Below are positions 4,616 through 41,479 of a DNA stretch of 41,479 bases, piece by piece. The notes below the pieces were generated by a model. It had not been told where the DNA came from. It did not search any database and saw only the letters and a program-made list of their open reading frames with translations. A program made the translations under genes and the position numbers. The stretch covers positions 1 through 41,479 of the forward strand of contig JAICGZ010000015.1 of NCBI GenBank assembly GCA_025922875.1, given 5' to 3'. The DNA is from Pyrinomonadaceae bacterium (GTDB lineage: Bacteria > Acidobacteriota > Blastocatellia > Pyrinomonadales > Pyrinomonadaceae). How positions within the stretch are numbered: position 1 is the stretch's first letter; every line of letters starts with the position of its first letter.

Positions 4616-7036
4616 ATGGAGAATCTTCGCGGCGATATACGGTACGCATTCAGGAATCTCTTAAAGCGGCCCGGGTTCACGGTAATCGCCGTCGTCACGC
4701 TTGCTCTCGGAATCGGCGCTAACACCGCCATCTTCAGCGCCATCCATGCACTCCTCCTGAAACCACTGCCATTCCCCGAACTCGATCGCGTGGTTGCGAT
4801 CTGGGACAAACTGCCGAGCCGTGGCCTCATGCACAACGAAGTCGCGATGGCCAACTACCTCGACTGGCAGGCGCAGAACCAATCGTTCGAACAACTCGCT
4901 GTCTATCGCTGGTGGAGCGCGAACCTCACCGGTGTCGATACCCCTGAACGCATCCAGGGTTTTTTAGTCTCCGCGAATTATCTCGACGTTCTCGGCATGA
5001 AGCCGATCATGGGCCGCAACTTCACTCCCGAAGAAAATCAGCCCGGCAAGGACGCGGTCGCGATCATCACTCACAGTCTCTGGCAACGACGTTTCGGCGG
5101 CGATCCGAACATCATCAATAAGACGGTCACTATCAACAGCATCGTGCGCACAGTCGTCGGTGTCACGCCGGAGCGTTTCAACTTTCCGAAGGGGGCCGAA
5201 ATTTATGCGCCGCTGCCGATGACGCCCGAGGTAATGAGCAGCCGCGGCAATCATAGTTACTACGTCTTCGGACGGCTGAAGCCCGGTGTTTCAATCGAAA
5301 GCGCGCAAGCCGATACAGACAACATCACCGCGCGACTCGCGCAGCAGTATCCGGAAACAAACACCGGTTGGGGCGCGACTGTTTTCCCAATCGTCGCCGA
5401 CACAGTGCGACTTTACGACACCCCACTCTGGGTGCTGATGGGCGCTGTTGGATTTGTGCTGTTGATTGCGTGTGCAAACGTTGCCAACCTGATGCTCGCG
5501 CGCGCCAGTGGACGTCGAAAAGAGATCGCGTTGCGTGCGGCGCTGGGTGCAAGCCGCTGGCGCATCATTCGCCAACTGCTGACTGAGAGCGTGATCGTCG
5601 CGTTGATCGGCGGTGCGCTGGGTGTCCTGATCGGTCTTTGGGGTATCGACGCATTGCGTGCGGGCAATCCTGGCGACGCGGCAAAGTTTGCGCCGGGCTG
5701 GGATCGACTCGGCATCAACACCCCAACGCTCCTATTTACACTCGGACTGTCTTTGTTGAGCAGCATCGTATTTGGCCTCGCTCCCGCGTTGCAGGTCTCG
5801 AAACCTGATCTCAACGTTGCGTTGAAAGAGGGAAACTGGCAAATGTCCGGAAGCTCGCATCGCCTGCGCAGCTCGCTCGTAGTTTTTGAAGTTGCACTGT
5901 CTTTGATGTTGCTCATCGGTGCGGGACTGTTGGCTCGCAGTTTCCTGTCACTGTTAAAAACCAATCCTGGTTTCAATCCTGACAACGTGCTCACGCTGAA
6001 CCTCGTATTGCCGGGTGCGAAGTACAGGGAACAACCACAACGCGCGACGTTCTACGACGACCTGGTCCAACGCGTAAAAGCATACCCGGGAGTCGAATCA
6101 GCGGCGGCCGTCAACTATCTACCGCTCGGCGGTGCGAACTCATCCGACTCTTATCTGGTTGAAGGCGAACCGGAACCCGCGGCGGGCGATGAGTATGATG
6201 GACGTTATCGCGTCTGTACGCCTGACTATTTCCGCACGATGGGCATTCCGCTGCTCAAAGGCCGCGGCTTTACGGACCAGGACAAAGCAGGCGCCACACC
6301 AGTAATCATCGTTAACGAAACACTCGCGCGCAAACACTGGCCTAACCAGGACGCGATCGGCAAGCGCATTCGTTTCTATGGGCCATCGGAAAGGGCGCGG
6401 TGGATGGAGATTGTCGGCGTCGTCGCAGACGTGAAGCATGAACTGAATCTGCCGGTCACGCCCGAATACTACTTGCCGCATGCGCAGGATCCGTGGAGCG
6501 CGATGGTGCTGGTCGCGAGGACAAGCGTTGAACCTGGCTCCCTCTCATCAGCGCTCAGGCAACAGGTATGGGCCATCGACAAGGACCAACCGGTGTTCGA
6601 CATACGCACGATGCAGGAAGTGCGATCGATGTCAGTCGCGCTGTATTCGTTTTCATCAGTGATGCTGGCGATCTTCGCAGGCGTGGCGTTACTGCTGGCA
6701 TCAGGTGGGATTTACGGTGTGATGGCGTTTGCAGTCACGCAGCGCACACAGGAGATCGGCATTCGCATGGCGCTCGGCGCGCGTGCGCTCGACGTGTTGA
6801 ACCTGGTGGTACGACACGGAATGAAGCTCGCGCTGTTGGGAATAGTGATCGGACTCGCAGGCTCCTGGGCGCTGACGCGTTTCATGGAGAAGTTGTTAGT
6901 GGACGTGCAGCCAACTGATTTGCTGACGTTCAGTGTGGTTTCAGCGTTTCTGCTGGCGGCTGCGTTTGTTGCGTGCTATCTGCCCGCTCGTCGCGCCACC
7001 AAGGTCGATCCGCTGCAAGCGCTTAGATATGAATAG
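4616..7036 (+). CDS. ADOP-family ABC permease P1
   Basis: 806 residues. The protein is a tandem of two MacB-like membrane halves: a cytoplasmic helix (DIRYAFRNLLKRPGFT, 7-22), TM1 ~22-46, periplasmic MacB_PCD-type domain ~50-268, TM2 ~271-296, TM3 ~324-346, TM4 ~370-392, TM5 ~418-442, second periplasmic domain ~450-670, then TM6 ~676-702, TM7 ~732-757 and TM8 ~767-790, ending [16 protein letters not shown]. It has no ATPase domain, so ATP must come from a separate subunit; ATPases 1 and 2 upstream are candidates. I chose ATG 4616 because GAGGAGG lies at 4606-4612 and the family N-terminus begins there; an in-frame ATG at 4526 would add 30 residues from the tandem repeat. The loop before TM8 reads LLVDVQPTD where most copies have LLFGVxxTD. 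Substrate unknown. Confidence 0.95.
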   Translation: MENLRGDIRYAFRNLLKRPGFTVIAVVTLALGIGANTAIFSAIHALLLKPLPFPELDRVVAIWDKLPSRGLMHNEVAMANYLDWQAQNQSFEQLAVYRWWSANLTGVDTPERIQGFLVSANYLDVLGMKPIMGRNFTPEENQPGKDAVAIITHSLWQRRFGGDPNIINKTVTINSIVRTVVGVTPERFNFPKGAEIYAPLPMTPEVMSSRGNHSYYVFGRLKPGVSIESAQADTDNITARLAQQYPETNTGWGATVFPIVADTVRLYDTPLWVLMGAVGFVLLIACANVANLMLARASGRRKEIALRAALGASRWRIIRQLLTESVIVALIGGALGVLIGLWGIDALRAGNPGDAAKFAPGWDRLGINTPTLLFTLGLSLLSSIVFGLAPALQVSKPDLNVALKEGNWQMSGSSHRLRSSLVVFEVALSLMLLIGAGLLARSFLSLLKTNPGFNPDNVLTLNLVLPGAKYREQPQRATFYDDLVQRVKAYPGVESAAAVNYLPLGGANSSDSYLVEGEPEPAAGDEYDGRYRVCTPDYFRTMGIPLLKGRGFTDQDKAGATPVIIVNETLARKHWPNQDAIGKRIRFYGPSERARWMEIVGVVADVKHELNLPVTPEYYLPHAQDPWSAMVLVARTSVEPGSLSSALRQQVWAIDKDQPVFDIRTMQEVRSMSVALYSFSSVMLAIFAGVALLLASGGIYGVMAFAVTQRTQEIGIRMALGARALDVLNLVVRHGMKLALLGIVIGLAGSWALTRFMEKLLVDVQPTDLLTFSVVSAFLLAAAFVACYLPARRATKVDPLQALRYE

Positions 7037-7040
7037 ATCA

Positions 7041-7071
7041 TATAGGTCCTATTTAGGACCTATTTAGAGGA
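7041..7071. repeat. TAGGTCC/TAGGACC palindromic repeat, P1-P2 gap
   Basis: AGGTCCTATTTAGGACCT (7044-7061) is a perfect palindrome with 8-bp arms and a TT centre, followed by TATTTAGAGGA, whose AGAGGA supplies the probable ribosome-binding site of P2. This is the first of six gaps with this repeat. Confidence 0.8.
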
Positions 7072-7074: not shown

Positions 7075-9591
7075 ATGGAAACATTATTTAAGGATCTCCG
7101 TTACGGCATCAGAGGCCTCCTGAAACGCAAAGGGTTTGCGGCGATCGCAGTGCTCACGCTCGCACTCGGCATTGGCGCGAACACCGCCATCTTCACACTC
7201 GTGAACGCAGTGATGCTGAAGTCGCTTCCCGTCGAGAAGCCCGAAGAGTTGGTGCTCTTCAGCGACGCAACCGGCGAGGGAACATCGGTAGTAGACACCC
7301 CATCAACAGGTGAGTGGCAACTCTTTTCATACGCGTCTTACGAATACTTTCGCAGTCACAACCAATCATTCCAGGACATCACCGCGCTCCGCAGTGGAGC
7401 CAGTCGCCTCAGTGTTCGCCAGGCTGATTCGCAAGCCGGAGCAGTGCGAGCGTCGGGCCAGCTCGTGTCCGGCAATTATTTCTCGGTTCTCGGTGTGCGT
7501 GCGATGCGTGGTCGCGTGCTCACGCCCGACGACGATAAACCTGCCGCCACACCGGCGGCAGTGATCAGTCATCGCTACTGGGAGAAGGAGTTGAACAGCG
7601 ACTCCGCAACTGTGGGCAAGAACTTCATTATCAACGGCACAAACTTCACAATCGTCGGGATCACTCCGCCCGAATTTTTTGGCGAGCGAGTGCGGCGTCC
7701 ACCCGACTTCTGGGTGCCACTCTCATTCCAACCTCAAATCGAATTACGCGAATCGTACCTGGCCGATAATCAGGTTTACTTTCTCATGATTATGGGCCGC
7801 CTCAAGCCCGGTGTGAGCCTGGACCAGGCACAGGCGACCACAAATCTGGCGCTGCGCCAGTTCTTGACTGAACAAGCCGGCAGCCAACTCAGCGAAGAGC
7901 GACAGAAAGGCATTCAAAACACTTACGCCACACTCGTCGAAGGCAAGGGTGGTATCTCAGGGCTTCGACGCAACTACTCAAAGCCATTGCAAATGCTGCT
8001 GGCGATTGTCGGCATGATCCTGCTGATCGCGTGCGCGAATGTTGGCAGCCTGCTGTTATCACGCGCTGCTGCTCGCAAAGCCGAGATCTCTCTGCGCATG
8101 GCCCTCGGTGCAAACCGTTGGCGCATCATTCGCCAGTTACTTACCGAAAGCATGTTGTTGGCCGGGCTCGGCGGCATTGTTGGCGTGCTGCTGGCCCAGT
8201 GGGCCGTCATCGTACTCGTCCGCCTGGTCGCGAGGGAGGCTCCGCTGGATACGCGAGTGGATCTTGGAGTGCTGGCATTTACTGTCGGCGTCTCGATCCT
8301 CGCTGGGCTTTTGTTTGGCTTGATTCCCGCAATTCAGGCCAGCCGTACAAATCTTTCCTCCGCGATGAAAGAGAAGACTCGAACCAGAGGCGGCTTTCTG
8401 AAATTCAGCTTGTCGTCGCTAATGGTGGTAATGCAGGTAGGACTATCGATGGTCCTACTCACCGGCGCGGGATTGTTCGGCCGCAGCCTCGTGAAGCTTC
8501 AGAGCGAAGACGTCGGCTTCGAGCGAGACAATCTTTTGCTTCTGGGTATTGATCCACGTCTCGCGGATTACAAAACGACCCAGCTCGCGACGCTTTACCA
8601 GCAGTTGATCGATCGTGTGGGTTCGCTGCCGCAGGTGAAATCCGTATCGCTGGCGACCTACGCACCGATGACGGGCACACGCCGCAGTAGCAGTATCAGA
8701 GTACCCGGACATACGCCCGAGCCCAATGAAAGTCAGGACGTGCAGGACATTCTGGCGGGACCCCGGTACGCCGAAACACTCGGTATGCCGGTGTTGCGGG
8801 GACGTGAGATTGAACTGCGTGACACGCCGGCCTCGCCCCAAATTGCCGTGGTTAATGAGACTTTCGTCCAGCGTTACTTCAAAGATCAAAATCCGATAGG
8901 CCGTTCATTCACGTTTGACGACGATACGGATAGGGGGGCGCCGATTGAAATAGTCGGAGTAGTTGGCGACATCAAGTCAGACCGCGACACCCGCGAGAAG
9001 CCCCAGGCCACTGTCTATCGCCCCATTCTTCAGATTCAGGACGGGTCAGCTTATTCCGCTACTCTTCACGTTCGCACACTGTCGGACCCGACGCCGCTCA
9101 CGTCGCAAGTGCGGCAGATGATCAACCAGATCGATCCCAAGCTGCCGATCTTTGGTGTGACGACGATGAGCGAACAACTACGCGAGAACCTGAACCAGGA
9201 ACGCTTGATCGCGCAACTCGTCAGTTTCTTTGGCGCGCTGGCGTTGATACTTGCGTGCATCGGTTTGTATGGCGTGATGGCCCATGGTGTCGCGCGTCGT
9301 ACGAATGAGATTGGCATACGCATGGCGCTCGGTGCTCGCGGCGGGAACATCGCGTGGATGATCTTGCGAGAGACGCTGTATCTCGTGTTGGCGGGATTAG
9401 TGATAGGCGTGCCGGCGGCGCTGCTGGGAGCGCGTTTGATTTCGTCGCAACTGTTTGGAGTGAGCCCGGCAGAGCCGGTGACGCTGATCGGAGCTGCGGC
9501 TGTGTTGACGATCGTTGCGCTGCTCGCGGGTTATTTACCTGCGCGCCGTGCATCGCGTGTGAATCCTTTGAATGCGTTACGTTACGAATAG
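7075..9591 (+). CDS. ADOP-family ABC permease P2 (long first periplasmic domain)
   Basis: 838 residues, about 30 more than most copies. The extra length is in the first periplasmic domain (~50-303): a TGEGTSVVDTPSTGEW segment before the FSYASYEYFR motif and an added stretch near SEERQKGIQNTYATLVEGKGG. TM2 therefore starts near residue 305. Only P13 shares this layout ([16 protein letters not shown] in P13, MLKSLPVEKPEELVLF here), so P2 and P13 form their own subclass. The remainder is a standard duplicated permease with 8 predicted TM helices and a second periplasmic domain from ~480 to ~700. The C-terminus is PARRASRVNPLNALRYE, a divergent form of the array-wide ending. AGAGGA at 7066-7071 is a close ribosome-binding site. 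Confidence 0.95.
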   Translation: METLFKDLRYGIRGLLKRKGFAAIAVLTLALGIGANTAIFTLVNAVMLKSLPVEKPEELVLFSDATGEGTSVVDTPSTGEWQLFSYASYEYFRSHNQSFQDITALRSGASRLSVRQADSQAGAVRASGQLVSGNYFSVLGVRAMRGRVLTPDDDKPAATPAAVISHRYWEKELNSDSATVGKNFIINGTNFTIVGITPPEFFGERVRRPPDFWVPLSFQPQIELRESYLADNQVYFLMIMGRLKPGVSLDQAQATTNLALRQFLTEQAGSQLSEERQKGIQNTYATLVEGKGGISGLRRNYSKPLQMLLAIVGMILLIACANVGSLLLSRAAARKAEISLRMALGANRWRIIRQLLTESMLLAGLGGIVGVLLAQWAVIVLVRLVAREAPLDTRVDLGVLAFTVGVSILAGLLFGLIPAIQASRTNLSSAMKEKTRTRGGFLKFSLSSLMVVMQVGLSMVLLTGAGLFGRSLVKLQSEDVGFERDNLLLLGIDPRLADYKTTQLATLYQQLIDRVGSLPQVKSVSLATYAPMTGTRRSSSIRVPGHTPEPNESQDVQDILAGPRYAETLGMPVLRGREIELRDTPASPQIAVVNETFVQRYFKDQNPIGRSFTFDDDTDRGAPIEIVGVVGDIKSDRDTREKPQATVYRPILQIQDGSAYSATLHVRTLSDPTPLTSQVRQMINQIDPKLPIFGVTTMSEQLRENLNQERLIAQLVSFFGALALILACIGLYGVMAHGVARRTNEIGIRMALGARGGNIAWMILRETLYLVLAGLVIGVPAALLGARLISSQLFGVSPAEPVTLIGAAAVLTIVALLAGYLPARRASRVNPLNALRYE

Positions 9592-9634: not shown

Positions 9635-12037
9635 GTGGACTCCTTAATCAAAGACCTACGTTACGGCATTCGGAGTTTGTTGAAGCGGCCAGCGGTTACC
9701 GCCATCGCTCTTATCGCGCTGGCTCTCGGAATTGGAGCGAACACGGCCATCTTCAGTCTGGTCAATGCTGTTGTGCTCCAGTCTCTTCCGTATCCGGATT
9801 CCGATCGACTCGTCTGGGCATGGGGAACCGTTCGTAACAGGATAAGTCGTGCTAGTGTTGCGCCGCCCGATTACCTCGACTTTCGCGCTCAGAACAAAAC
9901 ATTCGAACATTTCGGCGCCTCAACCACGCTTCCAGGTTCAGCGAATCTCACGGGCCTTGGCGATCCGGAACGCCTCACCGCATCGCGTGTGACCGGAAAC
10001 TATTTCGACGTGTTTGGAGTAGCGCCCGCGCTCGGTCGCGGATTCTCACTCGATAACGAAAAGACTGGTAACGATCAGGTCACTCTACTCAGCTACGCGT
10101 TATGGCAGAAACGGTTTGGTGGTGATCCCCAGATCGTTAACAAGACGATCATTCTTGATAGCAAACCGTATCAGGTGATCGGCGTGATGCCGGCCCATTT
10201 TAAGGTGCCGCAGATGGCTGAGTTGTGGCTGCCCATTAACTTCGATGCGGATCCGGAAATGAAGATGCGCCAGGCGCACTTTTTCCGGCCCGTCGGCAGA
10301 TTGAAAGCCGGTGTCAGCCTGGTGCAGGCGCAATCCGACATTGATTCAATCGCAGCTAGACTGGAGGAACAGTTTCCCGACACAAACACCGGGTGGGGTC
10401 TTGGTCTGGTTTCGTTGCGTGAACAACTAATCGGCACCAGTCGCAGTTTCGTCTTTATTCTTTTCGGTGCTGTCGGGTTGGTATTGCTCATTGCTTGCGC
10501 GAACGTGGCGAACCTGTTGCTGGTGCGCGCGGCTGCGAGGCAAAAGGAGATTGCCTTACGGACCGCACTAGGCGCGAGTCGACCGCGAATTATTCGCCAG
10601 ATGATCACTGAGAGTCTGTTGCTTGCGATCGTGGGCGGTGCGCTCGGTGCACTGCTGGCGGTTTGGGGCGTTGAACTGTTGGTAGCGTTGAGCGCGGACA
10701 GCCTGCCCCCAACCGTGACTGTAAAGATCGATTCGACGGTACTCGCGTTTACGCTCCTTATCTCAATCGTAACCGGAGTTTTATTTGGCCTGGCACCAGC
10801 CTTCCGCACGTTAAAAGTGAACCTCATAGATACGTTGAAAGACGGAGCGCGGGGTGCTGAAGGCACGCTACGAAATCGAACGCGTAGTTTCCTCGTAGTT
10901 TTCGAAAGCGCCGTCGCTGTGATGTTGCTGATCGGCGCGGGATTGCTGGTGCGAAGCTTGATTGAACTGCAACGGGTCGATCCGGGTTTCGACGCAAATA
11001 ATATTTTGACGTTCCAAATCGTCTTGCCGCAGAAGAAATATGACTTCGAAGGAAAGCCGGCCAGTTTCTTCGAGCAACTCGAAACCCGCGTCGGTTCGTT
11101 ACCCGGCGTTGAATCCGTAGGTCAAATTTCGGAGCTTCCATTCAGTGGCCAACTCAATGACGTCCCTTTTATTGTGGAAGGACGCCCAGCGGTTTCACCC
11201 GGCGACGGCTTTAACGCCGATTGGCGTCGCGTGAACCAAAACTACTTCAGCGCGCTCCGTATTCCTCTGCTGCGCGGTCGTAACTTCACTGAGCAAGAGG
11301 TGAGACAACGTGACAAGGTAGTGATCGTAAGTCAACAACTCGTCGCTATGGCTTTCCCGAATGAAGATCCGTTAGGCAAACGTCTCTTCTCAATTGGTGA
11401 CAAGCCGTACGAGATCATTGGCGTCGTGGGCGACGTTCGTCATTCATCGCTCGCAAGCCAACCGTTTGCCACGATGTACTTCCCCACTCGCAATTCCGGC
11501 CGGATGAATCTGGTTATTCGTACGCAGGGAGATCCTTTAGCCATTGTCGGTGCGGTACGCAAAGAGGTGCATGCTATGGATCCTGACCAGCCAATAGCGG
11601 AGGTCAAGAGGCTGAGTGATTGGGTTGACTCGTCGGTTGCCGCGCCGCGTTATCGCACGACGTTGCTCGCGTTGTTTGCGGCGCTCGCGATGGTGCTTGC
11701 AGCGACAGGAATTTACGGCGTGATGTCGTATTCAGTGGCCCAGCGAACGCACGAGATCGGTGTGCGCATGGCATTGGGTGCGCGACAGCTTGACGTGCTG
11801 AAACTCGTCGTTCGCCAGGGAATGGTTCTCGCGCTGGTCGGCGTGATTTTGGGTTTAGGTGGCGCGTTTGCTCTGACGCGCGTGATGTCGACGTTGCTGT
11901 TCGGAGTTACAGCGAAGGATCCGATTACATTTGGCGTGGGGGCGGTCTTGTTGACAGCGGTAGCTTTCATCGCCTGTTTCGTCCCCGCGCGCCGTGCGAC
12001 AAAAGTCGATCCATTAGTCGCGCTGAGATACGAGTAA
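9635..12037 (+). CDS. ADOP-family ABC permease P3
   Basis: 800 residues from a GTG start. GTG is chosen because it gives the N-terminus VDSLIKDLRYGIRSLLKRP, matching the MDSxIKDIRYxxR start of P4, P5, P7 and P8; no nearby in-frame ATG preserves this. Landmarks: TM1 ~22-46 ([20 protein letters not shown]), periplasmic domain 1 ~50-268 with DYLDFRAQNKTFEHF and FGGDPQIVNKTI, TM2 ~272-296, TM3-TM5 to ~440, periplasmic domain 2 to ~665, TM6-TM8, ending [17 protein letters not shown]. One of five adjacent-region copies (P3, P4, P5, P7, P8) with the same N-terminal heptapeptide style, which suggests they came from one another by tandem duplication. Confidence 0.95.
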   Translation: MDSLIKDLRYGIRSLLKRPAVTAIALIALALGIGANTAIFSLVNAVVLQSLPYPDSDRLVWAWGTVRNRISRASVAPPDYLDFRAQNKTFEHFGASTTLPGSANLTGLGDPERLTASRVTGNYFDVFGVAPALGRGFSLDNEKTGNDQVTLLSYALWQKRFGGDPQIVNKTIILDSKPYQVIGVMPAHFKVPQMAELWLPINFDADPEMKMRQAHFFRPVGRLKAGVSLVQAQSDIDSIAARLEEQFPDTNTGWGLGLVSLREQLIGTSRSFVFILFGAVGLVLLIACANVANLLLVRAAARQKEIALRTALGASRPRIIRQMITESLLLAIVGGALGALLAVWGVELLVALSADSLPPTVTVKIDSTVLAFTLLISIVTGVLFGLAPAFRTLKVNLIDTLKDGARGAEGTLRNRTRSFLVVFESAVAVMLLIGAGLLVRSLIELQRVDPGFDANNILTFQIVLPQKKYDFEGKPASFFEQLETRVGSLPGVESVGQISELPFSGQLNDVPFIVEGRPAVSPGDGFNADWRRVNQNYFSALRIPLLRGRNFTEQEVRQRDKVVIVSQQLVAMAFPNEDPLGKRLFSIGDKPYEIIGVVGDVRHSSLASQPFATMYFPTRNSGRMNLVIRTQGDPLAIVGAVRKEVHAMDPDQPIAEVKRLSDWVDSSVAAPRYRTTLLALFAALAMVLAATGIYGVMSYSVAQRTHEIGVRMALGARQLDVLKLVVRQGMVLALVGVILGLGGAFALTRVMSTLLFGVTAKDPITFGVGAVLLTAVAFIACFVPARRATKVDPLVALRYE

Positions 12038-12085
12038 AACGGACATTTGGAGACCTCTGTGCGAAACATTTTTTCTCACGCAAAG

Positions 12086-12140: not shown

Positions 12141-12164
12141 GAGAGTTTCTTCGGATAAAGAAAG

Positions 12165-12256: not shown

Positions 12257-12277
12257 ATCTCAATTGAAAATAAGATT

Positions 12278-32243: not shown

Positions 32244-34664
32244 ATGTTCAGAGTTCTGAAGCAAAACATCAGCTATGCGATCCGCACCTTGTTAAAGAAC
32301 AAGGGCTTTACGATCACGGCTGTGTTGACACTTGCCCTCGGTATCGGAGCGACGACCGCGATCTTCAGTGTGGTCTACGCAGTGTTCGAACCGATGCCGT
32401 ATCCGAATCCAGATCAACTCGTGATGGTGTGGACCAAGCTGCCGGGCGGGAAAAACTCTGTGGCGAGTGGCGACTTTCTTGAATGGCAACGACGCAGCAC
32501 CTCGTTCCAGGGCATGGGTGCGTGGACCGGCGCCTCATTCAATATCGCAACGAATGATAGACCAGAGCAGGTCACAGGCAGCCGTCGATCGCCAGGATTG
32601 TTCACGACGGAAGGACTGCCGCTGTTACTCGGACGCGATTTTCTTCCGGAAGAAGGCGAGCCTGGGAGGGACCATGTGGTGATTCTCAGTCACCGGCTTT
32701 GGAGTAAGCGCTTCGGCGCAAACCGGGATCTAATCGGCAAAGACATCCGGATGAACGGCGAGCCATACACAGTCGTCGGCATTCTCCCTCCCGGCGTGCA
32801 CGATCGATTCAACTCGCAATTGTGGGTACCGCTGTCTTTCAGACCAGACCAGATCGCTCACAATGCAAATTTCATGCTCGTGATGGCGCGGTTGAAAGAC
32901 GGCGTGACAATCGACCAGGCGCAGGCAGAGATGAACGTCATCGCCGCTCAATTGCAGAGCGAGCATCCGCAGTCAAATGCCAATCGCAACATAAGCGTCG
33001 AGCCGCTGCACCTCAACTTCGTCGCAGATTCCACACGCCGCAACCTTTGGCTGCTGTTAGGAGCCGTTGGGTTTCTGCTGTTGATTGGTTGCGTCAACGT
33101 CGCAAACCTGCTGCTCGCGCGCGGCACATCTCGTCAAAAAGAAGTTGCGGTAAGAGCGGCGTTGGGTGCATCCAGAAGCCGCTTGTTCGCCCAGTTTCTT
33201 ACGGAGAGTTTGGTGTTGGCTGTTCTTGGTGGAGCGCTCGGAATTTTTCTGGCCAATGCGATCATAAATGCGATAACAGCAGTTATGCCGATCGGCAGGA
33301 TGCTTCCGTCAGAAGCGAACATCAGAATCAGCATTCCGGTTTTGCTTTTCACGATCGCGGTAACGACGCTTGCGGGATTTTTGTTCGGAACAGCGCCGGC
33401 GTGGCAGGCAACAAAAGTCGATCTCAATGATGTTCTCAAATTAGGAGGACGCACCGGCACTGGGGGCGTGAGGCGTAAAGCTCTTCGCGCGCTTGTAGTC
33501 GCAGAGTTTTCGCTTGCACTCACGTTGTTGGCGACGGGTGGTCTTGCACTGCGAGGCTTCTGGAATCTGACGCGAATCGATCTCGGCATTCAAACAGAAA
33601 ATGTGGTTACGTTCCGCTTGCCGGTTCCTGAGAAACGCCTCGATGGCCCGGATCAAATCAGATCGTATTACGGGCAAATGCTCGAAAAGATTAAGTCGCT
33701 GCCCGGTGTAAACAAGGCTGCTGTGACGACTGGCATTCCCGGTCTCGGCGCATCGTTTGGAGCGCGCTTCACGATTGTGGGCCAACCCGTCAATCCTTCT
33801 GAACGCCTTGGCACCGGCGTTCTGATGGTGACGCCGGAATACGTCGACACGCTCGGAATTCGCATGGCACGTGGCCGCAACCTTAACGAGTACGACACAG
33901 CCACGAGTGTCCGTGTCGCCACCGTCAACGAAGAGTTTGTGAAGCAGTATTTATCCGGAGCCGATCCACTCACGCAAAGAATCTCCTTTCCGGAAATTAT
34001 TCCGGGCCAACCGCGAGGCAAACCAGTCGAATGGCAGATCGTCGGCGTGTATCACAACGTACGAGCTGCTGGATTTCGCGAAGAGCTTCCGCAGATCCAC
34101 GTGCCTTTCGCGCAAAGTCCGTGGCCAGAGGCGTCGATGGCAATAAAGACTGAAAGCGATCCAAAACACGTGGTCAAGAGTATTGCTGCCGCGGTTAGTT
34201 CAGTCGATCCCGATCTGCCGCTCGCGGGTGTGGAGACGATTGACGAGATCGTAAGTGATGCGTTGGCGATCGATCGTTTTAGCGTCGTGTTGTTTGCGAG
34301 CTTTGGCGTGCTCGGTCTGATGCTGGCGGCGGTCGGGATTTACGGCGTGATGGCTTTTGCTGTAGCGCAGCGCACACATGAATTCGGTGTGCGCATGGCG
34401 CTCGGCGCGCAGCGATCGCGAGTCGTCAATATGGTGCTGAAAGAAGGAACGATTCTGGCGATAAGCGGCACGGTGATCGGACTCGCCGGAGCGTATCTCG
34501 TAGGTCGGGCGATGCAGTCGACGTTGTATGGAGTCGAGGCTTTTGACGTTCGTTCGTTTGCCGCGGTCTCGTTGTTGTTGCTCGTGGCGGCGTTGCTGGC
34601 GTGTTTAACCCCAGCGTTGCGAGCCAGCCGTGTCGAGCCGCTGGTGGCGCTGCGATATGAATAG
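32244..34664 (+). CDS. ADOP-family ABC permease P12
   Basis: 806 residues from ATG 32244 (MFRVLKQNISYAIRTLLKNKGFTI); the open frame upstream to 32157 lies in P11 and has no similarity. It is among the more divergent copies: the N-terminal helix lacks the DLRYG pattern, TM1 ends VVYAVFEPMPYP instead of NAVLLRPLPYP, and the TM2 region reads [17 protein letters not shown]. Periplasmic domain 1 has DFLEWQRRSTSFQGMGAW and a PEQVTGSRRSPGLF box. Periplasmic domain 2 carries an insertion, FPEIIPGQPRGKPVEWQIVG. The loop before TM8 reads TLYGVEAFD, and the end is [15 protein letters not shown] with no ARRATKVD. Confidence 0.94.
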   Translation: MFRVLKQNISYAIRTLLKNKGFTITAVLTLALGIGATTAIFSVVYAVFEPMPYPNPDQLVMVWTKLPGGKNSVASGDFLEWQRRSTSFQGMGAWTGASFNIATNDRPEQVTGSRRSPGLFTTEGLPLLLGRDFLPEEGEPGRDHVVILSHRLWSKRFGANRDLIGKDIRMNGEPYTVVGILPPGVHDRFNSQLWVPLSFRPDQIAHNANFMLVMARLKDGVTIDQAQAEMNVIAAQLQSEHPQSNANRNISVEPLHLNFVADSTRRNLWLLLGAVGFLLLIGCVNVANLLLARGTSRQKEVAVRAALGASRSRLFAQFLTESLVLAVLGGALGIFLANAIINAITAVMPIGRMLPSEANIRISIPVLLFTIAVTTLAGFLFGTAPAWQATKVDLNDVLKLGGRTGTGGVRRKALRALVVAEFSLALTLLATGGLALRGFWNLTRIDLGIQTENVVTFRLPVPEKRLDGPDQIRSYYGQMLEKIKSLPGVNKAAVTTGIPGLGASFGARFTIVGQPVNPSERLGTGVLMVTPEYVDTLGIRMARGRNLNEYDTATSVRVATVNEEFVKQYLSGADPLTQRISFPEIIPGQPRGKPVEWQIVGVYHNVRAAGFREELPQIHVPFAQSPWPEASMAIKTESDPKHVVKSIAAAVSSVDPDLPLAGVETIDEIVSDALAIDRFSVVLFASFGVLGLMLAAVGIYGVMAFAVAQRTHEFGVRMALGAQRSRVVNMVLKEGTILAISGTVIGLAGAYLVGRAMQSTLYGVEAFDVRSFAAVSLLLLVAALLACLTPALRASRVEPLVALRYE

Positions 34665-34700: not shown

Positions 34701-37301
34701 ATGAATACACTGCTACAAGACTTACGCTATGGGTTTCGGATGCTGTTCAAGCAAAAGGGGCTGACGGCTGTCGCCCTGCTATCGCTTGCACTCGGCATTG
34801 GCGCCAACACCGCGTTGTTCAGCATCGTGGATGCGATGCTGCTGAAGATGTTGCCGGTCAAAGAGCCGGAGCGCCTGGTCCTATTTAAATCGGTTGCGCC
34901 GAAAGGTTTCAGTGCCGGCAGTTACAGCGGAAGTGGAAACACCGATCCGGTAACGGGCCAACGCACCATGACTTCGTTCGCGTTCCAGAGTTACCAGCGC
35001 ATGCGCGAACAACAAGGACCGCTGTCTGACATCTTTGCATTTGGCAACGTGGGGCTGAACGTCAGCGCCGATGGAGAGGCCGACGTCGCCAACGGACAGG
35101 CCGTGTCCGGGAATTATTTCGTTGGCCTCGGTGTGCAGCCTGCCGCCGGTCGCCTGTTGACTGATGAAGACGACAAAGCTTCAGCGACACCCGTCGCGGT
35201 TCTCAGTCATCGCTACTGGCAGAAACGTTTCGGCGGCGATCACGCAGTTGTCGGCAAACAGATCAATCTCAACAACGTTCCGTTCACAGTAGTCGGTGTT
35301 TCGGCCAAAGGCTTTGATGGGACCATGAGCGTCGGAACAACCCAGGACGTAACGATTCCGCTCGCGATGGAGCCGCAGCTATACGTCGACAAGCAACGTT
35401 CGTACATGAGCGGCGCGGGTGTGTGGTGGTTGCGCATCATGGGCCGTTTGAAACCCGGCGCCACCGCGGAGCAGGCCCAGGCGCAATTAGAAAATGCTTT
35501 TCAGCAATCCGTCGTCGAGCATCGTACGGCGCGTCAGGCCGTGCTTAAAGCAAGCGGCGGAAATCAGATAAGCGATTTAGATCCGAAGCAATATCCGCGA
35601 CTCTTTGCTGATCCGGGCGGGCAGGGTGAGATGTACCGCCGCAGATATTACGCGCCCTCGCTTTATCTATTGCTGGGTGTTGTCGGACTGGTGCTGCTGA
35701 TCGCGTGCGCGAACGTTGCGAACTTGCTCTTGTCCCGCGCCGCGGGGCGGCAAAAAGAGATTGGTTTGCGTTTGGCGTTGGGCGCAAGTCGCTGGCGACT
35801 CATCCGACAACTGTTGACCGAGAGTGTGCTCCTTTCAGTTTTGGGTGGACTGTTCGGAATCATCTTCGCGGTGTGGATCAAGAATGGATTGTTGGCCGTT
35901 ACGGAGTGGGGCGGCCGCGGGATGAGCGCACTCGATCCACGACTGGATTGGCGCGTGCTCGGTTTCACCATCGCGCTCTCACTGCTGACCGGAATTATTT
36001 TTGGACTCGCGCCCGCCTGGCGGTCGACGAGAGTTGATCTCACGCCGTCATTGAAAGACAGTGCGCGCGCATCGAGCGCCGTTCATCGCTCGCTGTTGAG
36101 TCGCGGGTTGGTGGTGGTCCAGGTGGCGTTGTCGTTGTTGCTGCTGGTTGGCGCGGGGTTGTTCGTCCGCACACTGATCAACCTGCAACGCGTCGATCCT
36201 GGTTTCAATACGAAGAACCTGTTGCTGTTTGAAGTTCAGCCGGCGCTGATTGGTTACAAGGACGAGAAGTTGCGGCAGGTTTTTCAACAGCTCAGCGAAC
36301 GTGTCGAAGCAGTTCCGGGCGTGCAGGCGGTCACCTTTTCGCGCGTGCCTTTGCTGGGTCAGAGTTCAAGTACGAGCCCTGCGTTTTTGCGCGAAGCTTT
36401 GAACGCGACGCCCGATGCCGAAGGACGTATCACGCCGACCGCCGAGGCCCACCGCCACACGGTTCGCGAAAACTTTCTCGAGGCGATGGGGATTCCACTG
36501 CTCCACGGTCGCACCCTCCGATCGCAGGATGACATGACTTCACCGCGAGTCGTAGTCGTCAATCAAACATTCGCTAACAAGTTCTTCCCGGGGGAAAACG
36601 CTGTCGGAAAACGCTTCACGTTCGACACATCAAAACCCGACGAGCTCGAGATCATCGGCGTGTGCCGTGACGCGAAGTACGCGACCCAGCGTGACGACGT
36701 GCCGCCCACCGTCTACTCCTCGTACCGGCAAGAGCGACCGCTCGCAAGCGCGGTATTCGAAGTGCGCACTGCTGCCGATCCGAATTCAATGGTAGCGGGC
36801 GTGCGCGACGCTGTGCGGCAGGTCGATTCGAATCTGCCGGTGAGTGGCGTGAAGACACAGGTCGAACAGGCTGATGAAACACTTCGCATGGAACGCTTGT
36901 TCGCAAAGCTGTTGACGCTGTTTGCGCTGTTGGCCCAGCAACTCGCGGCGATCGGATTGTTTGGTGTGCTCGCATACACAGTTTCGCAGCGCACGCACGA
37001 GATCGGAATTCGCATGGCGCTCGGCGCCGATCGTGCGAGTGTGCTGAAGATGATCGTGCGGCAGGGGATGACGCTCGCTGTACTCGGCGTGATCCTGGGA
37101 CTCGCGGGCGCTTATGTGCTGACGAAGTATCTCGAGAGTTGGGTTGGTCTTTCGAAGATGTTGTTTGGAGTGCAGGTTTCAGATCCGTTGACGTATGCAG
37201 CGATCGCGATATTGCTGACGGTGGTGGCGCTCATCGCGTGCTACATCCCGGCGCGTCGCGCGACGAAGGTGGATCCGCTCGTCGCACTTCGCTACGAATG
37301 A
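34701..37301 (+). CDS. ADOP-family ABC permease P13 (longest, P2 subclass)
   Basis: 866 residues, the longest in the array. N-terminus [22 protein letters not shown]1 ~22-46 ([20 protein letters not shown]). The first periplasmic domain (~50-318) has a Gly/Ser-rich stretch ([19 protein letters not shown], ~68-86), a [13 protein letters not shown] motif at ~93-105, and an added segment ([20 protein letters not shown], 281-300) ahead of TM2 (~319-343). It shares the [12 protein letters not shown] junction and long domain with P2. The second periplasmic domain includes [23 protein letters not shown]7-TM8 are separated by an extra [13 protein letters not shown]. The end is [23 protein letters not shown] lies just upstream of the ATG. 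Confidence 0.95.
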
Positions 37302-37343: not shown

Positions 37344-39740
37344 ATGCTTAACGACATCCGATTTGCCGCGAGGAGTTTGTTAAAGCGACCGGGCTTTACG
37401 ATCATCGTCGTGCTCACGCTCGCGCTCGGTATCGGCGCGAATGCGGCAGTCTTCAGCGTGATCAATGCCGTGTTGCTGCGCCCGCTGCCGTATCGCGACG
37501 CCGATCGCATCGTCACGCTCTGGCAAAACAATACCAAATCAGCCTTATCGCAAAACGACGTCTCACCCGCAAACTTCATCGACTGGAGTGAACAAAGCAG
37601 CTCGTTCGAAGCGATCGCCGGAATCGAGCCCTTTGGTTTTTCGATGGCGGACGAAGGTGAGCCGGAGCGCTTTACCGCATGGCTGGTCACTTCCGGTTTC
37701 TTTCAAGTCGCCGGCACTGATGCGTTGCTCGGCCGGACGTTCACAGCCGAAGACTATAAGCCCGGAAACGAACGCGTCGTGGTGTTGGGCTATGGCTTAT
37801 GGCAACGACGTTTTGGCGGTGACAAAAACGTCGCCGGTCGAAAGATAACTCTCAACGGCCAACCTTATGTCGTCGTTGGCGTCATGCCACACGAGTTCCA
37901 ACTGCCGTCGGAAAGAGAAATCTGGGCGCCGCGAGTTCTCGTCGAGAACCACCGGCAGACTCGTGGCGCGACCTACTGGAACGTTGTCGCTCGCTTGAAA
38001 CAAGGGACCACCGTCGCGCAGGCACAGGAGGAGATGAATGGAATCGCGGCGCGGCTCGCTGTGCAGTATCCCGAGACGAACGGCGGAATGGGCGCGAGTG
38101 TTGTTCCACTCTTCGAACAGATGACGGGACAGATTCGATCGGCGTTGTGGGTGCTCGCGGGTGCGGTTGGGTTTGTGCTGCTGATCGCGTGCGTCAATGT
38201 CGCCAACCTGTTCCTGGTCCGTGGCGCTGAGAGACAACGTGAGTTTGCGATCAGGCGTGCGCTCGGCGCGGAGCGCTGGCGATTGTTGCGGCAGACGCTT
38301 ACTGAGAGTTTGTTGTTGGCGCTGGTCGGTGGCGTAACCGGCGTGCTGCTCGCTTCTTGGTTAGTCAAACTGATCCCCGCGCTGAGCTCTTCCAAGATCC
38401 CGCGAGTTGAATACGTCGAGATGGATCTACGGGTCGTGTTGTTCGCGTGCGGAGTTTCAGTTTTGACTGCAATCATCTTCGGTCTCGTACCGGCAATTCA
38501 ATTCTGGCGCAACGATATTCAATCGACTCTCAAAGAAAGCGGCCGCAGCACCGGAACGCCGGTACGCCACCGCGTACGAAAGGCGCTGGTGATCAGTGAA
38601 GTCGCGATCGCGGTCGTGCTGTTGACCGGCGCGGGACTGCTCCTACGCAGTTTTGTCCGGCTCATACAAGTCGATCCGGGATTTACAAAAGAGAACGTGC
38701 TCGCGCTGCAAGTGTTTCTGCCCAGGAATTACGACAAGCGCGACCAGATGATCAACTTCTTCGATCAATCACTCGAAAAGATCGCAAATGTCCCGGGAGT
38801 CGAAACAGCGGCGGTTATCGCTACGCCGCCTTTCATAGACCTGGAACAGGATGCAAATTTCAATGTGGTGGGCCGGCCGGCGCCGCCGCAGGGCAGCGAG
38901 CCCGCCGCGTTTTATGCACAGGTTTCAAGTGAGTACCTGAATACGCTCAATATTCCACTCAAACAAGGCCGCTTCTTTACGAAGTTCGACAATGCGGGTT
39001 CACAGCCTGTCGTTGTAATTAACGAGACGATGGCTCGTCGTTATTTCCCGAATGAAGATCCATTGGGACAACGTTTGATCGTGATCTTTGGTAAAGCCGA
39101 AACGCGAGAAATCATCGGCGTCGTGGGTGACGTGCTCCATAACGGCCTTCATGTTGAGCCTCGCGCTGAAATGTTCGTGCCGCATCAGCAGAGTGTGAGC
39201 GCGCACATGACATTTTTAGTTAAGACGCGCACCGAGCCCACGTCACAAGTCGCCGCCGTCAAGCAGGCGATTCGCGAAGTGAATCCAAGACAAACTTTCG
39301 CGAGGACAGCGACGATGGATGAACTGGTGGCCGATTCTCTCAAGGAACGCCGCTTCAATCTCTTTCTGCTCGGACTGTTCGCGGCGACTGCTTTGCTGCT
39401 GGCGACGATCGGTATTTACGGATCGATCAGTTACTCGACGCGACAACGGACCAACGAGATCGGCGTGCGTATCGCATTGGGCGCGCAATCGCGCGACGTG
39501 CTGCGTTTGATTGTTGGACAAGGCATTGGTCTCGCGTTGATTGGTGTGGCGATCGGTCTCGGCGCGGCGTTTCTGCTGACACGTGCGATCAGGGGTTTGC
39601 TATTTGGTGTCAGCCCGACGGACCCGCTGACGTTTTTCGCGATTTCATTGTTGCTTTTGTTTACGGCGCTGGTGGCGTCGCTGATTCCCGCGCGGCGGGC
39701 GACGAAGGTCGATCCGCTCGTAGCGCTCAGAACCGAATGA
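37344..39740 (+). CDS. ADOP-family ABC permease P14
   Basis: 798 residues, starting MLNDIRFAARSLLKRPGFTI, with a strong GAGGAG at 37332-37337. The 42-bp gap to P13 shows no repeat. TM1 [20 protein letters not shown] (NAAV instead of NTAI); periplasmic domain 1 with NFIDWSEQSSSFEAIAG and RRFGGDKNVAGRKITL; TM2 ~265-290; periplasmic domain 2 with EYLNTLNIPLKQGRFF and YFPNEDPLGQRLIV. The loop after TM6 reads SYSTRQRTNEIGVRIALGAQ. TM8 lacks the usual Cys ([17 protein letters not shown]). The final residues are LVALRTE, with Thr replacing Tyr. Confidence 0.95.
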   Translation: MLNDIRFAARSLLKRPGFTIIVVLTLALGIGANAAVFSVINAVLLRPLPYRDADRIVTLWQNNTKSALSQNDVSPANFIDWSEQSSSFEAIAGIEPFGFSMADEGEPERFTAWLVTSGFFQVAGTDALLGRTFTAEDYKPGNERVVVLGYGLWQRRFGGDKNVAGRKITLNGQPYVVVGVMPHEFQLPSEREIWAPRVLVENHRQTRGATYWNVVARLKQGTTVAQAQEEMNGIAARLAVQYPETNGGMGASVVPLFEQMTGQIRSALWVLAGAVGFVLLIACVNVANLFLVRGAERQREFAIRRALGAERWRLLRQTLTESLLLALVGGVTGVLLASWLVKLIPALSSSKIPRVEYVEMDLRVVLFACGVSVLTAIIFGLVPAIQFWRNDIQSTLKESGRSTGTPVRHRVRKALVISEVAIAVVLLTGAGLLLRSFVRLIQVDPGFTKENVLALQVFLPRNYDKRDQMINFFDQSLEKIANVPGVETAAVIATPPFIDLEQDANFNVVGRPAPPQGSEPAAFYAQVSSEYLNTLNIPLKQGRFFTKFDNAGSQPVVVINETMARRYFPNEDPLGQRLIVIFGKAETREIIGVVGDVLHNGLHVEPRAEMFVPHQQSVSAHMTFLVKTRTEPTSQVAAVKQAIREVNPRQTFARTATMDELVADSLKERRFNLFLLGLFAATALLLATIGIYGSISYSTRQRTNEIGVRIALGAQSRDVLRLIVGQGIGLALIGVAIGLGAAFLLTRAIRGLLFGVSPTDPLTFFAISLLLLFTALVASLIPARRATKVDPLVALRTE

Positions 39741-39769
39741 GCGAGACGCCCAATTATTGAGGGGACCGG

Positions 39770-41479
39770 ATGCTTCAAGACCTCATCTACGGTGTGCGGT
39801 GGTTGCGTAAGAATCCCGGCTTTACGTTGCTGGCGGTGCTGATGCTCGCGGTTGGCATTGGTGTGAACACGGCGATGTTCAGCGTTATCAATGCCGTGCT
39901 GTTGAACCCACTGCCATACCCGGAAGCCGATCGCATCGTGTGGATGGCTGAGTCTGGCCCTGAAGTCGCCAGTCGTTGGGTCTCTTACGCCAACTTCGTT
40001 GACTGGCGCAATCGCAGCCAATCCTTCGAAGCGATGTCAACGTTTCGCGGTTGGTCTATGAACATAACCGGCTCGGACAAGCCGGAGAACATCAACGCGC
40101 GAATGGTCACCGCGGATTATTTCAAGGTCATGCGCACCGCTCCATTCATGGGGCGCGATTTCACTGCCGATGACGATAAGCGCGGAGCCGCGCCGGTAAC
40201 GCTCATCAGTTTTGGTTTCTGGCAACAGCATTTCGCCGGCGATCCGAATGTAGTTGGTAAGGCTCTCCTGCTTGACGATAAGGCGTACACAGTGATCGGC
40301 GTGTTGCCCGAGAGCTTTGCGCATCAGGGACCACCGCCTTTGTGGATCCTGATGGGCCCGCTACTGCACTCGCAGGGACGCGACACGCGAACCGGAGGCA
40401 ATGTAATTGCGCGGTTGAAACCCGGCGTCACAATCGAGCAGGCACGCTCGGAGATGAACCAGATCTCGCAGCAGTTGTCACAGGAATATCCGGTGGAGAA
40501 TGCGGGAGCGCATAGCGTCACGGTCGTGTCGCTGCAAGACAGCATCACGCGAAACGTCAGTGTCGCATTGAAAATACTCTTCGGCGCTGTGGGCCTGGTG
40601 TTGTTGATTGCATGTGCGAACGTCGCGAACCTCTTGCTGGCTCGGGCGGCGGTGCGGCGAAAAGAGTTTGCGGTGCGCGCCGCACTCGGCGCTTCGCGGT
40701 TCAGGATCGCGAGGCAAATGCTGATTGAGAGCCTGCTGCTTGCCGTCACCGGTGGCGCACTGGGCCTGGTCCTTGCGAGCTGGACCACATCCTTACTGAC
40801 TCGCGTGGCCCATGAGACAGTGCCGCGCATGAGTGGCTTGCAGCTTAACGGCAAAGTACTCGGTTTCAATCTCGCAGTTTCGCTGCTCACCGGAATTCTT
40901 TTCGGCGTGCTGCCTGCACTGCGCTCATCGAAAACAGATCTACAAGACACACTCAAAGACAGCAGCTCCACCACGACCGGCGCACAAGGCAAGAGACTGC
41001 GCGGTGCGTTAGTAGTGTCGGAAGTGGCGTTATCGGTTGCTCTTTTAGTGGGCGCAGGCCTGCTCGTAAAGAGCATGTTTGTACTCTTGCGAACTCAAAA
41101 TAATTTCGAGCCCGAAGGCGTCCTCACGATGGAACTGAAGGTGTCGCGGGGTCGATACCAGAGGCCCGGAGAACTCGGCCGTTTATTGCACCAGGTGCTG
41201 GACAACGTGAAAGCAGTACCGGGGGTTGAGTCCGCGAGTCTTTCCACCACGCTGCCGGGGCTGGGTGATTGGCAAAACGATATCGTGCCGGAAGGCTACG
41301 AGGTTCAGCCCCGTGAGGTGATCAACGTTGATTGGTCTATCGTCTCTGCCGGTTACTTTCAGACGATGAATGTCCCGATTCTTCAGGGGCGTACTTTCAG
41401 CAAAGATGAGGACGAGCAGGGAAAGAAGGTCGTGCTCGTTGATGAGACGCTCGCACAACGCTTCTGGCCCAATGAGAAT
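39770..41479 (+). CDS. ADOP-family ABC permease P15 (cut by the window end)
   Basis: 570 codons are visible from ATG 39770 ([20 protein letters not shown]), preceded by GAGGGGA, and the frame stays open to the last base. TM1 reads [21 protein letters not shown]; periplasmic domain 1 contains [16 protein letters not shown] and [18 protein letters not shown]2-TM5 are present ([40 protein letters not shown]). The window stops in the second periplasmic domain at [15 protein letters not shown], roughly residue 570 of an expected ~800, so TM6-TM8 should lie in the next ~700 bp. Whether the array continues beyond it cannot be seen. Confidence 0.93.

Follow-up and report, generated by a model that had tools for sequence, protein, structure and literature searches.

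A long row of ADOP permeases and the case for a shared adaptor-ATPase hub in a Pyrinomonadaceae bacterium

Permeases of the ADOP family (TIGR03434, a name which we take to stand for acidobacterial duplicated orphan permease) are, to our knowledge, by definition essentially never found with ATPases. The window, i.e. the whole 41,479-nucleotide stretch of DNA analysed, is the complete contig C15 (base 1 to 41479) of a Pyrinomonadaceae bacterium, in an assembly of 542 contigs. Its ADOPs resemble the family in the abundance of paralogues, but, contrary to that definition, stand in a single row beside ATPases and an adaptor. ADOPs are numerous yet unexplained in soil Acidobacteriota: the relevant passage of PMC10564751 gives 102 in one acidobacterial MAG, 80 of them transcribed, and that of PMC11573002 gives 28 and 33, by RAST, in two Dyadobacter genomes.

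Extent and history of the array

The row consists of 14 complete ADOP genes and one cut by the contig end, all on the + strand. It opens at 4526, with 4616 as the likely start, and reaches 41479; the ORFs are 798-866 aa long (570 aa for the cut one). In line with the original prediction of a long co-oriented array, all 15 proteins pass the curated TIGR03434 cut-off of 622.3 bits (680-1043 bits), and the genes are separated by nothing more than short gaps (less than 100 bases in 12 of the 14), a pair of ADOP relics and short repeats. Reading frames are open across the whole array.

Nine window ADOPs have orthologues, at 71-84% identity, in the congener G015, an independent assembly with 20 ADOPs in a single run. 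A01 (4616..7036, its ORF opening at 4526; 1038 bits against TIGR03434), A02 (7075..9591; 934 bits) and A03 (9635..12037; 993 bits) match G015 B01, B02 and B03 at 73%, 73% and 71%, and are followed by a relic (12038..12277, +) in which, by eye, the first codons of an ADOP are joined to the last and the interior is gone. A04 (12278..14713; 990 bits; B04, 73%) precedes an intergenic palindrome, GGGGTGGCC...GGCCACCCC (14714..14812, no strand), that looks REP-like by eye. A05 (14813..17212; 978 bits) has no G015 orthologue and has one in G120 (76%), a genome of a different genus. A06 (17233..19659; 954 bits) and A07 (19699..22122; 998 bits) correspond to B05 (75%) and B06 (77%). A08 (22198..24621; 934 bits), which has no close G015 orthologue, is followed by the second relic, a C-terminal ADOP fragment (24622..24846, +) whose bases 24655-24846 match TIGR03434 positions 736-796. 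The nearest G015 protein to A09 (24897..27302; 829 bits) is a scattered ADOP, at 42%. A10 (27331..29760; 1043 bits; B08, 74%), the member with a predicted structure (pLDDT 82.5), and A11 (29794..32220; 956 bits; B09, 75%) are followed by A12 (32244..34664; 891 bits), which, like A14 (37344..39740; 990 bits), has no close G015 orthologue. A13 (34701..37301; 930 bits; B07, 84%) is the array member closest to its G015 orthologue, and its best matches elsewhere are at 63% (G032 array), 70% (G036 array) and 51% (G120). A15 (39770..41479; 680 bits), cut by the contig end, has a G120 orthologue at 69%.

The suspicion that the array is longer than the window proved justified: C15 ends inside A15, and the rows of G015 and G120 have 20 ADOPs each, which in G120 are flanked by the ATPases on one side and by an NtrC-type regulator plus kinase on the other. 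Two other contigs of the window's genome are probably the continuation and end of the array, namely C373, whose best matches G015 B13-B16 are collinear and which has a fragment at each end (111 and 201 aa), and C238, where a cut ADOP is followed by NtrC and kinase genes. Since they look like this continuation, the full array likely comprises at least 20 genes. NtrC and kinase genes form its distal end in G015, in G120 and, on contig C238, in the window's genome. The beginning of a similar array is also present in G004 and G001.

Array paralogues share 33-47% pairwise identity, and no half of any window ADOP is more than 53% identical to another ADOP of its own genome. In a FastTree tree of the ADOPs of two genomes (80 sequences less 7 fragments below 500 aa), built without two window-genome ADOPs (contigs C2 and C6) and with long branches flagged, array members are dispersed, with 15 label changes of which at least 7 are forced by well supported branches. 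The tree and the identity matrix rule out recent tandem duplication. Thus, of the predicted clade-specific expansion with variable copy number, the variable count holds, from 0 to 20 ADOPs beside the hub across genomes, whereas a recent expansion does not, given the spread in the tree and the fact that 9 of the 15 members are older than the split from G015. Nor is the array static: instead of the same 15-gene order across distant Acidobacteria, congeners already differ in which genes they have and how these are arranged, and so do families. Two G120 array members are orthologous to G015 ADOPs outside the array (67% and 76%), and the second has an orthologue also in the window's genome (75%). 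The half-by-half comparison, made by best match per half and not by trees, gave the same partner for both halves in 15/15 orthologue pairs, which rules out half-swapping or gene conversion. All nine tested window-G015 pairs are under purifying selection, with dN/dS of 0.08-0.13, ratios that are rough at a dS of 1.3-1.9, near saturation. This constraint, and the run of the G015 and G120 rows from the hub to NtrC and kinase, support the idea of an organised repertoire beside adaptor and ATPases. On these sequence comparisons, the array is a maintained repertoire with reshuffled order, its members moving in and out, and not a recent tandem expansion.

Hub genes and their control

Upstream of the ADOP row lie an adaptor, two ATPases and a receiver-SpoIIE gene. 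The MacA/HlyD-like periplasmic adaptor (MFP, 313..1569, +) scores above the cut-off of RND_mfp TIGR01730, contains HlyD Pfam domains and, by profile, matches MacA structures. ABC1 (1687..2448, +), a MacB/LolD/DarD-type ATPase, has the canonical D-loop NLDS, and in ABC2 (2445..3140, +), the second ATPase, the D-loop Asp is replaced by His. With some loci counted twice, the Asp motif is kept in 94/95 ABC1 homologues and the His in 49/49 ABC2 homologues (NLHS 42, NLHT 6, SLHS 1). DarD is the best NCBIfam match for both ATPases, and the Dar equivalog cut-offs are not reached (DarB, DarC and DarD best 61, 85 and 254 bits vs 700, 450 and 375). RR-SpoIIE (3281..4432, +) is, by Pfam, a receiver fused to a PP2C (SpoIIE) phosphatase, and its receiver resembles the distal-end NtrC of G015 and C238 (66% identity across 136 aa and 64% across 140 aa, respectively). 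A 24-base tandem repeat (4465..4605, +) precedes the first ADOP. No outer-membrane channel gene was noticed among the hub genes examined, in an inspection short of a systematic search. The word orphan does not apply to this row, with ABC1 and ABC2 upstream on the same strand; it fits most of the scattered copies inspected.

A candidate sigma54 (-24/-12) promoter, TGGCACGGGCTTTGAA (155..170, +), lies 158 bases 5' of the adaptor and has one mismatch to the sigma54 pattern TGGCACGNNNNTTGCW. In 24/27 loci, the window and six congeners among them, a site with up to two mismatches precedes the first gene of the hub, compared with 4.4% of 2892 control tiles. Inside the window alone the number of sites is not above chance (1 found vs 0.65 expected), and the signal is weaker in named loci (26/80 with up to two mismatches). 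Upstream of scattered ADOPs such sites are not clearly enriched (5/37 vs 5.4% of tiles), leaving sigma54 coregulation of the scattered genes unsupported.

ADOPs, adaptor and ATPases across genomes

In a phylum-wide draw of 119 genomes of at least 90% completeness, ADOPs (E<=1e-150) and the hub adaptor (E<=1e-60) are present in the same 41 genomes, the sameness of the two lists being judged by eye (Fisher 7e-33, kinship not corrected for). All 41 have a single adaptor, the genomic pattern of one energising module with many permeases in trans; four of them have no ADOP above the curated TIGR03434 cut-off. ABC1 (E<=1e-100) is found in 39/41 ADOP genomes and 0/78 others. In a set of 59 genomes, made up of the window's own and relatives, 33/35 ADOP genomes and 0/24 others have the adaptor (E<1e-70), and 32/35 and 0/24 have ABC1 (E<=1e-95). 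The E thresholds are our own choice, and most ADOP-less relatives do contain adaptor-like proteins of lesser similarity (E 1e-4 to 1e-15); ADOP counts are lower bounds since the multi-genome searches score few candidates per genome. ABC2 (E<=1e-85) is found in 27/35 ADOP genomes; because it was not found in the other 8, the strict ABC1-ABC2 pair is not universal, which weakens the view of ABC2 as an obligatory part. In a kinship-aware test on an rpoB tree covering 48 of the 59 genomes (11 without a match), with presence and absence labels taken from the adaptor and ADOP searches, most or all of the five independent contrasts that lie on supported branches are concordant and none opposes (p 0.06, where 0.05 is unreachable).

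Most scattered ADOPs inspected have no hub-type ATPase nearby, as far as similarity to ABC1 or ABC2, by which neighbours were detected, can tell: only 3/34 loci have an ABC1-like ATPase, a weak match. G136, an assembly of 3 contigs, has 16 ADOP matches and one hub in the order MFP-ABC1-ADOP-ABC2-NtrC-HK, and around its 15 remaining ADOPs (14 loci) no ABC1/ABC2-like ATPase is found up to a distance of about 3 kb. G162, a single contig, has 41 ADOP matches (30 above the cut-off) and a hub at 2.71 Mb; its ABC2 adjoins a different ADOP 2 Mb from the hub, and the genome has a 58% identical ABC1-like ATPase in addition to the hub copy. Of the ADOPs inspected in these two assemblies, nearly all are without an ATPase next to them. 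The window's genome likewise contains two additional ABC1 copies, on C92 and C194, and in 12/119 genomes, all of them ADOP-less, the only ABC1-like ATPase is one of 50-59% identity. Several scattered ADOPs are extended at the N-terminus and have a PadR-like neighbour; scanned with Pfam, the long N-terminal stretches of 10 non-array ADOPs contained no named domain.

Pfam finds two MacB_PCD and two FtsX units in each of four ADOPs scanned (of 15), and the predicted fold of A10, modelled alone, has an internal duplication and matches YbbP, MacB, LolE and BceB. In the window array the mean identity of the coupling helices is 0.61 and 0.76, whereas that of the periplasmic domains (0.32 and 0.31) is among the lowest. 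Because TM1 (0.67) and the C-tail (0.85) exceed the N-terminal coupling helix (0.61), docking-helix conservation seems a weaker argument than it might appear. The consensus of the ATPase-docking helices is the same for array and scattered ADOPs.

A proposed single hub for many permeases

We think it reasonably probable that these genes encode a system akin to MacAB, with a single hub of adaptor and ATPases energising many duplicated permeases, those of the array as well as the scattered ones. MFP and ABC1, usually with ABC2, would be the common hub of a type VII, periplasm-acting ABC system, on which each of about twenty ADOPs, seen as a pair of MacB-type halves joined into one protein that lacks an ATPase domain, would serve as an interchangeable permease body. 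The ATPases would dock on two different ADOP coupling helices, the variable periplasmic domains would set the substance handled, and ADOPs scattered elsewhere in that genome would use the same hub. The whole row is probably one operon, presumably read as a single transcript, and the NtrC-type regulator and kinase from its far end may switch on the sigma54 promoter. The activity would be export, and envelope-active compounds met in soil are our guess at the substrates. Only a shade less firmly do we hold the wider proposition that one adaptor and an asymmetric ATPase pair energise dozens of interchangeable permeases, in a 50-kb operon and chromosome-wide, as a group II-like sharing in type VII (MacB) ABC systems, tested in Acidobacteriota and with the same hub also in Verrucomicrobiota. 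If true, the sharing rule would explain why orphan ADOP permeases usually have no ATPase of their own. Hub loss should then disable every ADOP, and a family of paralogues that is intractable today would become a single system open to testing; ADOPs differing mainly in their periplasmic domains would be a natural library for studying substrate choice.

The additional ABC1-like ATPases (in the 12 ADOP-less genomes, G162, C92 and C194) raise the thought that the hub serves adjoining ADOPs only and that scattered ones, which with their N-terminal extension and PadR-like neighbour are partly a separate class, use other MacB/LolD-type ATPases. This is unlikely, albeit not negligibly so, as it leaves unexplained the hub adaptor in 41/41 ADOP genomes of the phylum-wide draw, the docking consensus common to both classes, and the same ADOP lying inside an array in one species and outside in another. 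Somewhat less likely again are hub-energised ADOPs that are not exporters and act as FtsX-like mechanotransmission devices driving periplasmic enzymes or envelope remodelling. Against this reading, the hub has an adaptor of MacA/HlyD type, which normally joins an outer-membrane channel. In its favour, no channel gene was noticed in the unsystematically inspected hub, and type VII permeases, as PMC8277102 describes, move periplasmic parts by the ATPase stroke.

That ADOPs function without any ATPase, their ATPase neighbours being incidental, would suit the scarcity of ABC1-like genes near scattered copies (3/34 weak; 0/14 non-hub loci in G136); it is very improbable in view of the good conservation of the coupling helices, which the periplasmic domains lack, and of an adaptor and ABC1 that track ADOPs phylum-wide. 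We give scarcely any credence to a silent reservoir of recombination cassettes with one expressed slot, as in antigenic variation: relics, short repeats and order changes do indicate rearrangement, but gene conversion has left no sign (33-47% identity, halves at most 53%, 15/15 concordant, 9/9 purifying). Least credible of all is an assembly artefact or decaying gene graveyard, despite the 542 contigs and two relics. An artefact is very unlikely because members are only 33-47% identical and similar arrays occur in the independent assemblies of G015 and G120, and the open frames and low, if rough, dN/dS (0.08-0.13) argue against decay.

With the shared hub as our preferred reading, we know of no earlier case of an energising module shared among MacB-type transporters. 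Among the matches listed in a literature search that covered subscription journals little, there was no paper on an ADOP array or hub sharing, and the text retrieved from PMC11573002 and PMC10564751 mentions orphan permeases only incidentally; in that of PMC3174227 the word orphan is absent and the permease passages do not name ADOP.

Several known systems are nevertheless partly alike. The best Foldseek match among solved structures is E. coli YbbAP (9ge6_A, E 1.1e-18, TM 0.44), which likewise has a duplicated permease with a separate ATPase; YbbAP has one permease and one ATPase without an adaptor, whereas the window locus has an adaptor and many permeases. The darobactin exporter DarBCD also has adaptor, ATPase and duplicated permease as separate proteins, but it has one permease, and the window scores far below the Dar cut-offs. 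Group II ECF transporters, vitamin importers of another fold, are alike in working only, with no homology claimed. In these, as PMC7755397 describes, several membrane subunits share a single energising module that contains two different ATPases, EcfA and EcfA'. MacAB-TolC, named in part of PMC8277102 as the holotype of type VII ABC transporters, shares with the window the MacB-type core with FtsX domains, a MacA-like adaptor and MacB/LolD-like ATPases. Unlike MacB, an ATPase joined to a four-helix permease, the ATPases here are separate proteins and the permease, doubled by fusion, has no ATPase domain, with about twenty permeases per adaptor and no channel gene noticed. Bce modules (BceAB-BceS, from an excerpt of PMC10314905) combine a permease of the same superfamily with a kinase that has, by eye, two helices and a loop of ~10 residues, and differ from the present locus, which has an NtrC/sigma54 output, an adaptor and many permeases.

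The ADOP array as a maintained repertoire

The window is contig C15 (bases 1-41479) of a 6.8 Mb genome in 542 contigs. It carries on the + strand, from left to right, a MacA/HlyD-kind adaptor, two MacB/LolD/DarD-like ATPases (ABC1 and ABC2, their genes having 4 bases in common), a receiver-SpoIIE protein (RR-SpoIIE), and 15 ADOPs (A01-A15), permeases of two fused MacB-type halves. All 15 exceed the curated TIGR03434 cut-off and 14 are complete. Gaps of less than 100 bases separate the ADOPs in 12 of 14 cases, and relics occupy the two longer gaps. In one of these the start of an ADOP is fused to the end of an ADOP, and in the second only a C-terminal ADOP fragment is left. The original prediction of a co-oriented array of 15 ADOPs is thus correct.

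Short GGTCCTATAGGACC-like repeats, which could be recombination or RNA elements, lie directly 3' of ADOP stop codons in six window gaps (7037-7074, 9592-9634, 19660-19698, 24847-24896, 27303-27330, and 29761-29793), in one of the six after a relic. A REP-like palindrome (14714-14812) separates A04 from A05; the array of the congener G015 has a different palindrome.

In G015, an independent and better assembly (20 contigs), the array contains 20 ADOPs on one strand (C7 219536-269153) and adjoins the same adaptor and ATPases as the window array. G120, from another genus of the family and 100% complete, has a 20-ADOP run flanked by ABC2 and by an NtrC regulator and kinase, with one further ADOP on the opposite side of the adaptor. 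The array in the window's genome probably also has 20 genes or more, because its contig C373 (6 kb, ADOP end to end) finds its best hits in B13-B16 of the G015 array, in order (81, 78, 71, and 77%; the first and last pieces, fragmentary at 111 and 201 aa, have non-reciprocal best hits), and its contig C238 opens with a cut ADOP, after which come NtrC and kinase; these resemblances would join C15, C373, and C238. Whole genomes contain 39 ADOP genes above the cut-off in the window's genome and 36 in G015.

The array is a maintained repertoire whose members are gained, lost, and relocated. Nine of the 15 window ADOPs have reciprocal orthologues in G015, and A05 and A15 have orthologues in G120. 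Gene order is partly preserved relative to G015 (A01-A04, A06, A07, then A13, A10, A11) and mostly lost relative to G120; in G004 an additional ADOP is inserted between A01 and A02, and in G001 A02 precedes A01. Two array members of G120 are orthologous to ADOPs located outside the array in G015. A FastTree analysis of 73 ADOPs drawn from two genomes (several long branches are flagged) places the array members in no single clade, and 15 label changes are required, at least 7 of them on supported branches. A fresh amplification of the array is rejected on this tree and on the 33-47% identity among array members, versus 71-84% between orthologues. The nine orthologue pairs have a low dN/dS (0.08-0.13, rough ratios since dS is 1.3-1.9).

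Co-occurrence of ADOPs with a single hub

Among 59 genomes (the window's own and relatives), 35 contain ADOPs, and 33 of these contain the adaptor (E<1e-70); the two others are G008, where a contig end truncates ABC1, and the 62% complete G013. None of the 24 ADOP-less relatives has the adaptor at this threshold, their best matches being no better than about 1e-15. G003, G014, and G017, of the same genus or family and 95-100% complete, showed neither ADOP nor hub adaptor at the thresholds used; the congeners lacking both include G003 (98% complete) and G014 (95%), an apparent absence of the whole system within a genus.

When the phylum was sampled evenly (119 genomes, completeness >=90%), the 41 genomes with an ADOP at E<=1e-150 were identical to those with the adaptor at E<=1e-60. 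Each has one adaptor, and 37 of the 41 have an ADOP above the curated cut-off. ABC1 (E<=1e-100) is present in 39 of the 41 and in 0 of the remaining 78; G059 and G073, both of one genus, lack it at this threshold and have a 59-60% version, and a 50-59% version occurs in 12 ADOP-less genomes. To allow for kinship, changes were counted on an rpoB tree (48 genomes), where ADOP requires 8. Supported branches give five independent contrasts, a number for which a sign test cannot fall below 0.05; the adaptor tracks ADOP in an average of 4.6 of them and opposes it in none.

Two well assembled genomes illustrate this pattern. G136 (3 contigs) has 16 ADOPs, one of them within a compact hub (MFP-ABC1-ADOP-ABC2-NtrC-kinase, MFP being the adaptor), and no ABC1/ABC2-like ATPase was found within about 3 kb of its 14 non-hub loci (15 ADOPs). 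G162 (1 contig) yields 41 ADOP matches (E<=1e-120), of which 30 exceed the cut-off, and has its MFP-ABC1-NtrC-kinase hub at 2.71 Mb and ABC2 beside another ADOP at 4.76 Mb; elsewhere among the 20 stretches inspected, which cover part of the 41 genes, two had ATPase matches, of only 26-29%. Scattered ADOPs of the window's genome and G015 have an ATPase-like frame at 3 of 34 loci (26-27% identity). Among the best 80 of 577 adaptor-profile loci, counted within stretches many of which are short, ABC1 occurs in 70, a same-strand ADOP in 50, ABC2 in 35, NtrC in 31, and kinase in 26; they come from Acidobacteriota, Verrucomicrobiota, a MAG labelled Deltaproteobacteria, and one labelled only bacterium.

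The window's genome has two extra ABC1 copies (L318:4282-5058, 85%; L319:2384-3115, about 80%), with neither adaptor nor ADOP in the stretches around them. PadR-like small regulators, so labelled by eye (L111:9474-9815, L120:2227-2586, L121:5911-6321, L128:5830-6213, and L131:1621-1962), adjoin scattered ADOPs whose open frame is extended at the N-terminal end by about 87-115 residues.

The component parts of the locus are known kinds. In PMC10564751 and PMC11573002, ADOPs appear as numerous, transcribed, and unexplained, the former giving 102 in one MAG, 80 of them active; among the papers listed, our literature search found no account of this ADOP array, its hub, or ADOP-hub co-occurrence.

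Permease structure and proposed mechanism

The predicted structure of A10 (pLDDT 82.5, pTM 0.70) is a single chain of two MacB-type halves, and Foldseek matched it to E. coli YbbP, then MacB, LolE, and BceB, with TM-scores by query length of at most 0.44 and large rmsd. Such permeases touch their ATPases at cytoplasmic coupling helices. In the window array, mean pairwise identity is 0.61 and 0.76 for these two helices, 0.32 and 0.31 for the two periplasmic domains, and 0.41-0.53 for the remaining helices apart from TM1. Since TM1 reaches 0.67 and the C-tail 0.85, the N-terminal docking helix is not alone in its conservation. Each half has a docking consensus common to array and scattered ADOPs.

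Docking motifs differ between the two halves, and the D-loop has Asp in 94 of 95 ABC1 and His in 49 of 49 ABC2 sequences, which fits an asymmetric ATPase pair under a pseudo-dimeric permease. Counting against a strict ABC1-ABC2 pair, the search found no ABC2 in 8 of the 35 ADOP genomes (G005, G013, G016, G025, G026, G028, G038, and G041). We therefore propose that one hub would power many permease bodies, with specificity set by the periplasmic domains and the ATPase stroke transmitted to the periplasm, as PMC8277102 describes for MacB. From co-occurrence, docking conservation, and relocation, we infer that scattered ADOPs are served by the same hub. As a working analogy, the group II ECF module (PMC7755397) comes closest; no common descent is claimed.

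Putative control genes and candidate promoter

In 24 of 27 loci, all except G026, G036, and G037, a -24/-12 site, a candidate sigma54 promoter, lies upstream of the first hub gene, versus 4.4% of control tiles. Taken by itself, the site in the window would not be conspicuous, and a search of 400 bases at the best 80 adaptor-profile loci found one in only 26. The distal NtrC combines a sigma54-activator domain with a Fis-type helix-turn-helix, and a kinase is encoded next to it; two NtrC proteins and two kinases were scanned. In the Verrucomicrobiota loci L254, L259, L260, L263, L276, and L278, the NtrC-kinase pair precedes the adaptor rather than following the permeases.

By eye, five kinase sequences have two hydrophobic stretches about ten residues apart, recalling the intramembrane-sensing kinases of Bce modules, and it is our speculation that the array kinase senses transporter activity. 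The RR-SpoIIE receiver shares 64-66% identity with two NtrC receivers, so RR-SpoIIE and NtrC may be targets of one kinase. RR-SpoIIE (3281-4432) is without a counterpart beside the G015 hub; a 57% homologue there adjoins a scattered ADOP (L122:5649-6902).
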